DNA of 64,000 bases from Rhizobium sp. L1K21 (lineage in GTDB: Bacteria; Pseudomonadota; Alphaproteobacteria; Rhizobiales; Rhizobiaceae). Location: contig NZ_JAMXLE010000001.1 of NCBI RefSeq assembly GCF_024055895.1, forward strand, positions 1,116,001 to 1,180,000. The letters run 5' to 3'. Every line of letters begins with the position of its first letter. The first letter of the stretch is position 1. The position numbers were made by a program, and so were the translations under genes. Shown piece after piece: positions 29,903 to 33,566 of this stretch. The notes beneath the pieces were generated by a model. It did no database searches. It was not told the DNA's origin and worked only from the letters and a program-made list of their open reading frames with translations.

Positions 29903-30210
29903 TGGAGCTTTTCCGCACCGATATCATCCTCATTATCCTGGCTGCCGGTGTGGCAACCTACCTGACCCGCATTGGCGGTTATCTGGTTCTGGCGCGGTTC
30001 AAGAATATTCCGCCGCGTGTGGAAGCGGCCCTGGATGCCGTGCCCGCAGCGGTCCTGACCTCCATCGTCGCCCCGGCTGCCATGACCGGCGGGTGGGAAG
30101 TGTCGGTGGTCATCCTGGCTGCCTTCGTGCTCGGTTTCAAGCTTTCCGGTTTGCGGCTGCTTTTCTTCGGCTGGGCGCTCGCCATGGTCTTGCGGCACGC
30201 GCCATTCTAA
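29899..30210 (+). CDS. azlD: AzlD family branched-chain amino acid exporter, small subunit
   Basis: Small membrane partner of AzlC, 103 residues and three hydrophobic segments, with the family motif TYLTRIGGYL near the N-terminus. Two ATGs occur in tandem (29899 and 29902). The second has better spacing from GAGGAGG at 29891-29897 and may be the real start. The 3' end overlaps the convergent aminopeptidase gene by four bases. Confidence 0.9.
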   Translation: MMELFRTDIILIILAAGVATYLTRIGGYLVLARFKNIPPRVEAALDAVPAAVLTSIVAPAAMTGGWEVSVVILAAFVLGFKLSGLRLLFFGWALAMVLRHAPF

Positions 30211-32039
30211 TCAAATGATGCCGTTGCGCTTTCGAGCCAGGCTCTGATCTCCGGCGCATCGATAAAGGGCAGGAGATTTTCACGCGTTTGTGCGTGGTAG
30301 CTGTCCAGCCATTGCAATTCCTCGCGTGTGAGCAACTCCGTCATTACCAGACGGCGATCAATGGGGCACCAGGTCAGCGTTTCAAACCCGTGCATGGCAG
30401 TTTCGCCGCCTTCGATGGCTTCGGCCTCTGTCACCACGATCAGATTTTCAATGCGGATGCCGAAGGCACCGGGTCGATAATAGCCGGGCTCATTGGAGAG
30501 GATCATACCCGGATGCAGGATCTGCATCGCAGCCCTTGATATGCGCTGGGGGCCTTCGTGGACGGAGAGATAGGAACCCACGCCGTGGCCGGTTCCGTGG
30601 CCATAATCCGCACCGGCTTTCCACAGCGCAATGCGGGCGAGGGGATCGAGATCGACGCCGCGCGTGCCGACTGGAAAACGGGCCATGGAAATCGCGATCA
30701 TGCCTTTCAGCACCAGTGTGAAGAAACGGCGCTCGTCTTCGCCCACTGCACCGATTGCTACCGTTCGGGTAATGTCGGTCGTGCCGTTCTGATATTGCCC
30801 GCCGGAATCAACAAGGTAGAGGCTGCCCGGTTCAAGCTTGCGGTTGGTGGCGGTGGTTACCCGGTAGTGGATGATTGCCCCGTTGCTGCCCGCGCCAGAA
30901 ATCGTGTCGAAGGATATGTCCTTGAGCGGATTTTGGGCGCGCTCACCGACCGACTTGCGGCAGGCTTCCAGCTTTTGTGCGGCTTCAATCTCCGTAATGG
31001 TCGTGGGTGCCTGTTGATCCAGCCAATAGAGAAACTCGACCATCGCGGCCCCGTCCTGCAGATGCGCGCGGCGCGAACCTTCCTGTTCGGCCTTGGTCTT
31101 GATGGCGCGGGGCAGGGCGCAGGGGTCGTTGCCTTCCTTCAGTTTGCCACCGTTCTTCTCGATTTCTTCAACCAGCGCGTAGGGCGTGATGGCCGGATCG
31201 ATCAGAATGGCTGCGCCGTTTTTCGCAAGGTTCTGCAGCGTCTCTTCGAGCGCTGAGGGCGGCAGGAGCGTTGCAATCTGGGTGAGGTATGCTTCTTCCT
31301 CTATGCCGAGTTTTGCCCTGTCGATGAAGAGTTCGGCGCTGCCATCGACGTTGACGATGGCGCGGGCCAGCGGATGAGGCGTGTGCGGCACATCGCTGCC
31401 GCGAATGTTGAATGCCCAGGCAACAGAGGAGGGATCGCAGATCAGCACGGCATCGAGCTTTTTCTCATGCAGATCGGCTGCGAGTTTGGCCAGCTTCTTT
31501 GTGGCCAGTTCACCGGCGAGATCGCTGGGCTGGATGGAGATGGCACCATTTGGAGGTGCCGGGCGGTCGTGCCAGATAAGATCAATCGGATTGTCCTTCA
31601 GGAGGATGACTTCGCCGCCTTTCTCTTCCAGAGCTTTCGAAAGTTTGCGGATTTCATCGGGCGTGTGCAGCCACGGATCAAGCCCCAGCCGGAAACCGCT
31701 CCGCGCATTGTCCTCCAGCCATTTGGCGGGGGGCTGATTTATCAGGTCACCCGCGGAGAAAATGGCGGGGTCGGTCTGTGCTGCAACCTGTGTCGTATAG
31801 CGTCCGTCAACAAAGACGATCGCCTGATCCTGGCAGATCAGCGCCACGCCCGCGGAACCGGTAAAGCCGGTGATCCAGGCCAGCCGTTCTGATGATGCCG
31901 GCACATATTCGCCCTGAAACTCATCGGCGCGTGGCACGAGAAGGCCATCAATGCCGAGGTCAGGCATGACCGCACGCAGGACTTTGATCCGCGGCGCAGC
32001 ATTTTCAGGGGAGGCGGTCACATCATAGGACTGGAACAT
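30207..32039 (-). CDS. Xaa-Pro aminopeptidase (M24B family)
   Basis: Metallopeptidase that removes an N-terminal residue before proline. The 610-residue form has two creatinase-like N-terminal domains and a C-terminal pita-bread domain, like eukaryotic-type aminopeptidase P1. The metal ligands are visible in order: Asp in LYLVDSGGQY, Asp in TTDITRT, His in GHGVGSYLSVHEGP, Glu in SNEPGYY and Glu in IRIENL. Cytoplasmic (no signal peptide). It is transcribed away from the small DUF1127-like gene and shares the 32040-32263 promoter region with it. Confidence 0.93.
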   Translation of the reverse strand: MFQSYDVTASPENAAPRIKVLRAVMPDLGIDGLLVPRADEFQGEYVPASSERLAWITGFTGSAGVALICQDQAIVFVDGRYTTQVAAQTDPAIFSAGDLINQPPAKWLEDNARSGFRLGLDPWLHTPDEIRKLSKALEEKGGEVILLKDNPIDLIWHDRPAPPNGAISIQPSDLAGELATKKLAKLAADLHEKKLDAVLICDPSSVAWAFNIRGSDVPHTPHPLARAIVNVDGSAELFIDRAKLGIEEEAYLTQIATLLPPSALEETLQNLAKNGAAILIDPAITPYALVEEIEKNGGKLKEGNDPCALPRAIKTKAEQEGSRRAHLQDGAAMVEFLYWLDQQAPTTITEIEAAQKLEACRKSVGERAQNPLKDISFDTISGAGSNGAIIHYRVTTATNRKLEPGSLYLVDSGGQYQNGTTDITRTVAIGAVGEDERRFFTLVLKGMIAISMARFPVGTRGVDLDPLARIALWKAGADYGHGTGHGVGSYLSVHEGPQRISRAAMQILHPGMILSNEPGYYRPGAFGIRIENLIVVTEAEAIEGGETAMHGFETLTWCPIDRRLVMTELLTREELQWLDSYHAQTRENLLPFIDAPEIRAWLESATASFD

Positions 32040-32263
32040 GGGCTTCTCTGCTGATCGAATATGTGTGATTCCTGTTTTAATGCGCTTAGGCCAACAGGCA
32101 AGCGCTGCCTGCAGAAATCCGATTCGCGATTTTTATCAGCCGGTCAATTATGCAAATGCTGCATAGCACATATGTTCAATGGGCGCTTTCGCACTGCAGC
32201 ATATGTACCTATATTCAAATCAACACAACGGAACAGCGAATTTTAACCGAAAGGAATGAAGAG
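32040..32263. promoter_or_regulatory. Divergent promoter region with an ATGCTGCA/TGCAGCAT dyad
   Basis: About 220 AT-rich bases between divergent genes. An 8-bp inverted repeat ATGCTGCA (32156-32163) / TGCAGCAT (32195-32202) frames a 31-base spacer that includes ACATATGT, and a second ATATGTA follows the right arm. This could be an operator for either gene. A plausible but unproven -10 lies in TATATT near 32210. Confidence 0.35.
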
Positions 32264-32413
32264 ATGTCTCTCCTCGGTAACGCAATGAAGAACATTATCG
32301 CAGCTCGCGAACGTCAGGCACAGCGCTATGTAGCGCGCGTGATGCAGGAAATGGGCCAGGAAGACGCCCGCGTCATGGGCCGCACCCGCTCCGACATTCT
32401 CGGCGGCCGTTAA
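32264..32413 (+). CDS. Small Arg-rich protein, DUF1127-like
   Basis: A 49-residue basic protein with nine Arg, starting at the ATG at 32264 behind AAAGGAATGAAGAG. An amphipathic helix (NAMKNIIAARERQAQRYVARVM) is followed by GRTRSDI near the C-terminus, which resembles the end of DUF1127 proteins (typically GLTRSDI). Assignment to that family is probable, not certain. Directly downstream is a structured RNA with three CCTCCTCCC-type sequences. In Rhodobacter sphaeroides a DUF1127 gene (ccaF1) is co-transcribed with the CcsR RNAs that carry the same motif, and its product binds RNA. The same arrangement here supports both calls. Confidence 0.7.
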   Translation: MSLLGNAMKNIIAARERQAQRYVARVMQEMGQEDARVMGRTRSDILGGR

Positions 32414-32420
32414 TATATAA

Positions 32421-32583
32421 GAATTCGTTTCCGGAATTCTCGCGCCCTTCTCCTCCTCCCATGGGCCTTGGATTTCGGGTTCGGAGCATCTGCCTATCCT
32501 CCTCCTCCCGATGGCAGATGCGATCAGCCAAGCTGATCCAAGGGCGACGCTACCTCCTCCCAGCGTCGCCCTTAATTTTTTTC
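32421..32583 (+). ncRNA. CcsR/cuckoo-like small RNA with three anti-Shine-Dalgarno loops
   Basis: Eight bases after the small gene comes a chain of hairpins. Three pyrimidine motifs complementary to Shine-Dalgarno sequences occur at 32450-32460 (CTCCTCCTCCC), 32498-32509 (CCTCCTCCTCCC) and 32553-32561 (CCTCCTCCC). The second lies in the 18-base loop of a perfect 9-bp stem (GCATCTGCC / GGCAGATGC, 32486-32521), and the third in the loop of the terminator. The first is in a weaker GCCC/GGGC loop. Loop-exposed CCUCCUCCC is the defining feature of the CcsR RNAs of Rhodobacter and the related cuckoo family of Rhizobiales. Probably processed from the small-gene transcript. Confidence 0.75.
32541..32582 (+). 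terminator. Terminator of the small gene/sRNA transcript
   Basis: A perfect 11-bp stem AGGGCGACGCT / AGCGTCGCCCT with a 10-base loop (ACCTCCTCCC) is followed by TAATTTTTTT. The loop holds the third anti-SD motif, so the terminator is part of the functional RNA. A further hairpin GATCAGC / GCTGATC (32522-32538) lies just before it. Confidence 0.9.
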
Positions 32584-32618
32584 TCAAATCGAAATAAATT
32601 TGATGACAGTTCCGAGGC

Positions 32619-33509
32619 TCAGCCCTGCAGAACGATCGTTACCCAGCCGTTGCGCCAGATCGTTTTCACGTGTGCGAGTTTCTGCCCGTTATATGCTGAC
32701 AGAACCTTCCAGCGCTGGCTTGCCAGGATGCCGGAGAGAATCACGGTTCCGCCGGGCGCGAGGTTCTGCACCAGCGCCGGTGCGAGCTTCATCAGCGGTT
32801 TTGCAAGGATGTTGGCGATAATGAGGTCAAAGGGGCCGTGTTGGGCAAATGAGCGGTGGTGAAAGCCGGGGGCTGCCGCGAAGGTGATTCCTGAAACAAC
32901 GTGGTTTTTTCTGGCGTTTTCGCGGGCTACGCGGACGGCAACCGGGTCGATATCTGTTGCCAGAACCGGTATGCGCGCGACCTTGTGTGCGGCAATGGCC
33001 AGCACGCCGCTGCCGGTTCCGAGATCCAGTGCATTGCGTACCGTGCGCTTGCGCAATGTCAGGTCGATCATTTCCAGGCAGCCTGCGGTCGTGCCGTGGT
33101 GTCCGGTACCGAATGCCTGACCGGCATCGATTTCGATGGCGATATCGCCTGTCTTGCGCTCGTCTCTATCATGCGAGCCGTGGACGAGAAAACGCCCGGC
33201 GCGCACCGGCTTCAGGCCTTCAAGCGATTTGGCGACCCAGTCTATATCCGGCAGCTCTTCGCGCTCGATTTTCAGATCGGGGAAATCCGCATCGACAATT
33301 GCCTGAAAGGTGGCTCTGGCGGCCTCTTCGTCGGCCCGGGTGGTGTAGACCGAGGCTTCCCAGATATCCCGGTCCTCATCAATTTCCTGCGTGGCGATAG
33401 CATATTCGCTGTCCTCGAATGCAATCGTCAGGTGGTCGAGGATGGTTTCGCAGAGCCTTTCGCCGGCTTGCACATAGAGGCGGATTTCACTCAAAAACTT
33501 GCTCCCCAT
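32619..33509 (-). CDS. prmA: Ribosomal protein L11 methyltransferase PrmA
   Basis: SAM-dependent methyltransferase that trimethylates ribosomal protein L11. The N-terminal substrate domain is followed by GQAFGTGHHGTT, the SAM loop LDLGTGSGVLAIAA and NILAKPL, all typical of PrmA. I prefer the ATG at 33509 (296 residues); a GTG at 33524 would add five residues. Neither has a clear ribosome binding site. It lies upstream of nothing it clearly depends on; the Sco-family gene follows on the same strand upstream. Confidence 0.93.
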   Translation of the reverse strand: MGSKFLSEIRLYVQAGERLCETILDHLTIAFEDSEYAIATQEIDEDRDIWEASVYTTRADEEAARATFQAIVDADFPDLKIEREELPDIDWVAKSLEGLKPVRAGRFLVHGSHDRDERKTGDIAIEIDAGQAFGTGHHGTTAGCLEMIDLTLRKRTVRNALDLGTGSGVLAIAAHKVARIPVLATDIDPVAVRVARENARKNHVVSGITFAAAPGFHHRSFAQHGPFDLIIANILAKPLMKLAPALVQNLAPGGTVILSGILASQRWKVLSAYNGQKLAHVKTIWRNGWVTIVLQG

Positions 33510-33566
33510 ATGAGCGGGCGTCACGGGTTTTCGCGCCGCCCTTCAATATGAACAGCTCAGGCTCTA

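Follow-up and report, generated by a model that had tools for sequence, protein, structure and literature searches.

The window analysed here is a 64 kb stretch (G000:C7:1116001-1180000) of a 4.34 Mb genome. Within it, a pepP-type aminopeptidase gene (30207-32039, minus strand) and prmA (32619-33524, minus strand) enclose a series of plus-strand features. These comprise a LysR-type, LsrB-like box of the exact form TGCA-N6-GCAT (32151-32164), a candidate -10 element, CTATAT (32209-32214), placed 44 nt past the box, an ORF for a small basic protein of 49 residues (32264-32413) whose ATG is preceded by AAAGGAATGAAGAG, and an RNA of about 165 nt (32418-32583) with anti-Shine-Dalgarno loops, assigned to the alpha-r14/cuckoo type through the Rfam ar14 model, the covariance model R1, and its predicted fold. 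An earlier sequence-only reading of this stretch had called the protein gene, and ORF and translation confirm that call.

The protein gene is conserved and syntenic. It occurs as a single copy in the source genome, and its frame, on whose conservation the sequence-only reading had staked its case, is uninterrupted in 6/6 genus genomes. Synonymous divergence exceeds nonsynonymous divergence (pS > pN) in all 76 pairs counted for the family. Among the five congeners of the window, dN/dS ranges from 0.22 to 0.62 (10 pairs; the window's copy excluded), and near relatives beyond the genus, with pS/pN values of 0.22/0.02 and 0.17/0.02, point to tighter constraint than among the congeners. Among named loci of the protein family, pepP lies upstream in 47/47 and prmA downstream in 43/47. 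The comparison covers a genome family of 394 genomes that includes Hoeflea, Martelella, Aquamicrobium, and Mesorhizobium; the protein profile matches 258 of these at E 0.01, some of them away from pepP-prmA. Three genomes (L281, L282, L284) carry a paralogue of the small protein at other sites, with the shared pattern QERRMRP...LSRLDDQTLI.LGHDP, and their pepP-prmA locus is RNA-only or gives an RNA match.

Likeness of the protein to DUF1127 is remote. Against Pfam DUF1127 (PF06568, gathering score 23.3) it has no match at E 1, so the profile search that the sequence-only reading had proposed returned nothing. For 20 family members at E 5, DUF1127 is absent among the matched Pfam and NCBIfam families, the scans yielding a few weak matches to unrelated families, and the 49-residue ORF is missing from the matches of a DUF1127 search of the source genome at E 10. 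Local hhalign comparison of the protein family with 29 DUF1127 proteins of the genus gives a score of 33.9 (probability 89.9). None of 150 column-shuffled controls scores above 14.3, and the reversed alignment scores 13.0. However, the local alignment spans only 28-36 C-terminal residues, global alignment lowers the probability to 46-56, and hmmsearch with the family profile reaches at most 12.9 bits. The C-terminal half of the protein may thus be remotely related to DUF1127 or be a look-alike. The label "DUF1127-like" thus survives as remote profile similarity and fails as membership in a Pfam or NCBIfam DUF1127 model.

The RNA folds into a chain of four hairpins. Hairpin 1 (32430-32479) and hairpin 2 (32486-32521) display the loop motif CCUCCUCCC at 32450-32460 and 32499-32509, a short motif-less hairpin of the form GATCAG...CTGATC follows at 32522-32538, and a terminator hairpin with a T run (32540-32583) carries the third motif at 32553-32561. 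The first two copies read CTCCTCCTCCC and the last CCTCCTCCC; these are the sole three copies across 64 kb, CCTCCTCCC being found three times on the plus strand, all within the RNA, and zero times on the minus strand. The sequence-only reading had placed the three motifs correctly within one base, the middle one being the copy at 32499-32509, and was right that the terminator hairpin itself bears a motif. Its claim that two motifs sit in the loops of perfect stems needs correction on two points: hairpin 2 contains a bulge, and the stem right around motif 1 amounts in the window to five pairs plus a bulge. The last hairpin is not listed by a simple terminator scan because its 10-base loop exceeds the scan's loop limit of 8. 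The region 32414-32585 has a folding energy of -73 kcal/mol; 200 shuffled versions average -44.35 (sd 3.99), which puts the region at z -7.18. Conservation of the loop motifs, likewise expected from the earlier reading, is complete across six genus genomes (18/18 motifs present), with a predicted unpaired probability of at least 0.99 for 17/18 and 0.64 for the remaining one. The possibility that the RNA masks the start site of the upstream ORF was considered and rejected: predicted accessibility of the start region in the window is 0.60 with and without the RNA, and the change is at most 0.03 across the six genus genomes.

Covariation is evident in the genus and beyond it. In six genus sequences, 95.4% of cells pair and 10/47 pairs show double changes (shuffled mean 2.1, 0/500 as high), while sliding the partners reduces pairing to 30-44%. 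In 20 sequences from several genera, limited to hairpin 2 and the terminator, 95.3% of cells pair, 11/15 pairs are double-changed (shuffled mean 7.7), and 56 double-change cells contrast with 21.4 in shuffles and at most 9 in slid versions. Further pair types in the 20 sequences show no excess (21 vs 21.2 in shuffles, 356/500 as high). The alignments are sequence-based and the structures were derived from these same alignments, which favours the structures over their slid versions in such a test. The GATCAG hairpin has no covariation test because its pairs are invariant in the genus. The terminator-loop motif is present in the window's genus, in G061, G084, G278, and G163, and perhaps in G009, and is missing in most relatives read at pepP-prmA, a distribution that might stem from gain, loss, or copying out of other ar14 copies.

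The RNA belongs to a recognizable kind. Rfam ar14 (RF02344) aligns to 32432-32577 over the complete model (1-123) with 49.9 bits and E 5.1e-8, below the gathering score of 58.8, as do all six genus copies at the locus (49.9-55.5 bits). CcsR1 (RF02791) aligns one motif hairpin with 22.3 bits against a gathering score of 65.3. The covariance search suggested by the sequence-only reading is accordingly a full-length ar14 match without passing either cut-off, and its proposal of a cuckoo/CcsR-type RNA is borne out for the alpha-r14/cuckoo kind. Model R1, built from 20 ORF-downstream RNAs, aligns to 32418-32576 with 88.9 bits, the window sequence being itself among its members. Sequence comparison supports the assignment of the window RNA to the alpha-r14/cuckoo kind, a known RNA type. 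Cuckoo RNAs carry two to four motif hairpins. The idea that three motifs in one transcript are exceptional is rejected: the ar14 consensus carries three motif loops, alpha-r14 members are described with three hairpins and CCUCCUCCC in each (accessible part of PMC10746234), and SmelA075 has three hairpins and SmelA099 four (accessible part of PMC3927594).

Copies of this RNA kind abound: ar14 matches 386/394 family genomes at E 0.01 and passes the cut-off in 370. The source genome holds three ar14 matches, the best of which (G000:C7:1652070-1653189) adjoins the trigger-factor gene tig, with two DUF1127 genes after it. NfeR1, the founder of alpha-r14, adjoins tig, and the tig-side copy at C7:1652070 is the likelier NfeR1 counterpart in the source genome. 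Because the best ar14 copy stands beside the trigger-factor gene, the pepP-prmA RNA is a separate copy, and its identification with NfeR1 itself is rejected. Agrobacterium PmaR was also rejected, being described in the accessible part of the source as a single spoon-like hairpin between two hypothetical ORFs (PMC6234868), as were the Rfam families STnc320, BASRCI337, and sR23 (E 0.59 to 3.5). Five of the six genus genomes (L201-L204, L206), the window's not among them, carry elsewhere a separate CIN1-type locus, where the box of a DUF1127 gene has one mismatch (TGCA-N6-GCAC) and four CCTCCTCCC motifs follow at +182 to +303.

The promoter region links the locus to other RNAs of its kind. The box is exact in 6/6 genus genomes, and five congeners have CTATAA at equal spacing. 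The protein family offers 64 distinct upstream regions, of which 20 contain the exact box and 29 a box with one mismatch (49/64; shuffles 0.6% and 5.9%); L033, in which neither pepP nor prmA was found, and L085 are excluded from these counts and from the downstream motif count given below. The box also precedes all 17 other ar14 copies of the genus that pass the cut-off, at a distance of no more than 160 nt; it is exact in 10 of them and has one mismatch in 7. The sole sigma-70-like site in 32050-32620 lies at 32188-32215 and overlaps CTATAT (1 found; shuffles 0.4), with none within the ORF or in the gap between ORF and RNA. Transcription is predicted to start near 32221. LsrB is reported to act on TGCA-N6-GCAT at about -72 to -57 of NfeR1, an RNA raised by salt and nitrogen stress (both from the accessible part of PMC10746234), and the window box matches that position if the -10 hexamer is set at -12 to -7. 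For VtlR, the LsrB counterpart, the accessible text proposes GCAT-N3-TG-N3-T (PMC7486931), a form that fits Hoeflea copies such as L069; the window box has the LsrB form exactly and the VtlR form in part. VtlR is described as the primary regulator of DUF1127 proteins and as an activator of AbcR2 in Brucella (PMC12595884, as far as accessible). These likenesses suggest that LsrB might bind the window box.

Across relatives, the pepP-prmA locus takes one of three forms: the protein alone, the protein together with the RNA as in the window, or the RNA alone. The 133 distinct regions 3' of the ORF include 25 with at least one motif loop and 16 with at least two (shuffles 11% for one, 1.3% for two), leaving 117 with fewer than two; the 6/133 with at least three are the six genus members, and G061 has three by sequence. 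Model R1 at E 0.001 matches 116/394 genomes, 19 of which supplied model members. From these 116 genomes, 40 loci outside the model, 19 in it, and a few more were read. The 40 divide into 33 with pepP or prmA and a motif RNA, two at the locus with a different small ORF (L234, L262), and five elsewhere. Among the 33, the profile finds an ORF in L229 (21 bits), L237, and L261, and a diverged ORF is seen by eye in L228 and L232; in the other 28, the protein profile and reading found no recognizable ORF before the RNA.

The 28 RNA-only loci keep the promoter signature at much shorter range. Their box is exact in 11, has one mismatch in 16, and two mismatches in 1 (shuffles 0.3%, 11.6%, and 64%); in 24/28, the box has no more than one mismatch and AGC or GGC comes after it. 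The -10 fit is poor (4/6 or less) in several, and L246 and L258 have doubtful boxes. Leaders from promoter to RNA have a median of 61 nt and measure 31-112 nt in 27/28, the exception being L258 (266 nt, no good box). In 22 protein-plus-RNA loci, leaders run to 190-293 nt, with 19/22 at 190-221. Leader counts exclude L256, L259, L260, L263, and L264, which lie off pepP-prmA, and L234 and L262, which have a different ORF and a weak RNA. The short RNA-only leaders have no room for a 49-codon ORF with a ribosome site. In five RNA-only loci (L230, L231, L235, L236, L253), the stretch from promoter to hairpins is repeat-rich, of the GAAGCGAACG / AACGAA type.

Remnants and substitutes of the ORF occur as well. 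A protein search in 23 RNA-bearing genomes gives 9 with a match at E 0.01: the three genomes noted above with the distinct paralogue elsewhere, G163 at the locus, and five with matches of about 20 bits. In G163 (L283), a shortened ORF of 45 codons stands directly before the RNA, and the congeners G084 and G278 have no ORF there. The G163 ORF retains the N-terminal half without the DUF1127-like half, and looks like an intermediate. L234 and L262 carry a mutually alike, different small ORF (MTSPIRTS... / MTSQIRTT...) that ends just before the RNA, so ORF replacement also occurs.

The states were placed on a tree of 89 loci, inferred from PrmA and the N-terminal part of PepP with careful IQ-TREE settings and full flanks; L066, L077, L082, L089, L025, L035, L030, L246, L258, and L265 were left out, and L277 and L278 were added. 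The RNA-bearing clade has support of 100/98 and holds 56 rows (29 protein plus RNA, 25 RNA only, 2 protein only). All 33 rows outside it have the protein and are coded RNA-less, L049 and L062 carrying one motif; that every outside row has the protein is partly a result of choosing rows for presence of protein or RNA, genomes with neither lying outside the sample. The tree requires 2 changes in RNA presence and 6 in protein presence, counts that are independent of the root and give no direction. The ORF-less group requires 6 changes, at least 5 on starred branches (bootstrap 5-7). The tree program warned of long branches meeting among the outer rows.

Recoding of doubtful rows puts RNA at 2-3 changes and protein at 4-6. 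A third RNA change is needed if RNA-less coding is given to the four Martelella-like rows or to L261 and L271, or RNA-bearing coding to the one-motif rows L049 and L062; treating the diverged ORFs in L228, L232, and L229 as absent lowers the protein changes to 5 or 4. L051, L277, and L278, with at most one motif, are coded protein-plus-RNA via R1 matches, L058 via kinship and one motif, and L228 and L232 by eye; the R1 scores behind doubtful protein-plus-RNA coding are 54.8 bits for G161, 33.4 for G353, and 33.1 for G317. Protein and RNA are separable, given the three locus states, the changes on the tree, and the short RNA-only leaders. Most simply read, the RNA would have been gained once and lost again in Rhizobium lemnae and a relative, while the ORF was lost repeatedly, the protein probably being the older part of the locus.

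Our main reading, to which we assign a probability of roughly 0.7, is that the locus yields an LsrB/VtlR-type-promoter mRNA for a DUF1127-like protein that ends in a ribosome-binding-site-pairing RNA of the alpha-r14/cuckoo type, and that these parts are separable. Transcription would start at the LsrB/VtlR-type promoter between pepP and prmA, and the transcript would encode the small Arg-rich DUF1127-like protein before ending in the RNA. The RNA is probably freed by cleavage near the stop codon, or might act inside the full transcript; processing at this point is proposed by analogy with CcsR1-4, which are cut from the ccaF1 3' UTR with RNase E (accessible part of PMC8625941). Any of the three CCUCCUCCC loops might pair with purine-rich ribosome-binding sites of other mRNAs and lower their translation, as for NfeR1, which represses ntrB and for which equal competence of all three motifs is predicted (accessible part of PMC10746234). 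Because protein and RNA would share a promoter, they would also share a signal. The sequence-only reading had proposed a stress-linked protein-RNA regulator; the NfeR1-type promoter box speaks for the stress link, but a dedicated unit is disfavoured by the 117/133 regions with fewer than two motif loops and the 28 ORF-less RNA loci.

Two rival accounts retain the anatomy and change its meaning. The locus might be a CcaF1/CcsR-like module (CIN1) in which the protein binds the co-transcribed RNA, steers its maturation, and forms one functional unit with it. The remote DUF1127 likeness of the protein, the DUF1127 gene before a four-motif RNA elsewhere in 5/6 genus genomes, and the joint retention of protein and RNA in 6/6 are all as this account would have it, yet protein without RNA and RNA without protein are both widespread at the locus, the protein fails the Pfam DUF1127 model, and it diverges fast among the five congeners while all 18 motifs are retained. 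Partnerships with other proteins have also been reported for DUF1127 proteins (accessible part of PMC12501420). We regard a single functional unit as unlikely; protein-RNA binding is possible in the source genome, and the family comparison does not favour it. Alternatively, the role of the hairpins might be confined to cis: they would terminate and stabilise the mRNA of the small protein and leave other messages untouched. A terminator-like last hairpin and strong folding would suit that role, which is nonetheless hard to reconcile with loop motifs that stay constant while stems vary, with RNAs that remain at loci without a recognizable ORF, and with start-region accessibility that is nearly equal with and without the RNA; we consider it quite improbable.

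A third rival reverses the order of events. In it, a stand-alone RNA gene would be the older state and would have captured a small ORF on several occasions, a course compatible with root-independent change counts and with the different small ORF before the RNA in L234 and L262. It is made very improbable by the 33 outside rows (including Stappia, Ahrensia, and Phyllobacteriaceae), protein-bearing and coded RNA-less though preselected, by the one protein family found in most protein-plus-RNA rows, and by the shortened copy in G163 beside two congeners that have none. We consider it on balance probable that a small-protein mRNA with an LsrB-type promoter acquired a 3' end with anti-Shine-Dalgarno loops and that the ORF was then lost four to six times with promoter and RNA kept. 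In this mRNA-first order, the RNA would have been added at the 3' end of an older protein gene, and ORF loss in several later lineages would have left promoter and RNA as a stand-alone sRNA. The odds of such a conversion of mRNA into regulatory RNA do not rest on the number of ORF losses.

A literature search on the pepP-prmA locus found no paper, although it may be listed in the 2015 paper on the cuckoo family or in the 2012 survey of alpha-proteobacterial sRNAs. Within the literature searched, the locus series and the shared LsrB-type promoter are new, and the RNA kind is known. To our knowledge, few worked series exist for the origin of bacterial sRNA genes, and this locus may be an example of an mRNA turning into a regulatory RNA. 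If so, a lineage of alpha-r14-type sRNAs was born as mRNA tails. Because protein-only, protein-plus-RNA, shortened-ORF, and RNA-only forms coexist at one syntenic locus with a recognizable promoter, each step of the conversion is open to reporter tests. The candidates for LsrB/VtlR control would also gain a family of small proteins that has no model in Pfam or NCBIfam, and, as a caution, a small protein paired with a cuckoo RNA need not mean a protein-RNA partnership.

Among known systems, the closest in RNA anatomy are alpha-r14 (RF02344; founder NfeR1 of Sinorhizobium meliloti) and the SmelA075-type cuckoo RNAs, which share with the window three CCUCCUCCC hairpins on variable stems. They further share a terminator as the last hairpin and an LsrB-type box ahead of the -10; the window RNA differs in its sub-cut-off score, its additional GATCAG hairpin, and its pepP-prmA site behind a small ORF. 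The ccaF1-CcsR1-4 system of Rhodobacter sphaeroides (CIN1 locus) likewise has an Arg-rich small-protein gene followed directly by an RNA with the same loop motif, and its gene order and spacing fit the window locus. The window departs from it in a CcsR1 score of 22.3 against 65.3 bits, in a protein outside Pfam DUF1127, in an LsrB-type box where the accessible text gives ccaF1-CcsR1-4 an RpoHI/RpoHII promoter, and in a protein and RNA that come apart in relatives. Finally, the VtlR/LsrB systems of Rhizobiales resemble the window locus in placing DUF1127 proteins and AbcR sRNAs under one LysR-type regulator (PMC7486931, PMC12595884); in the accessible parts of these sources protein and sRNA are separate genes, whereas in the window they would form one predicted transcript.
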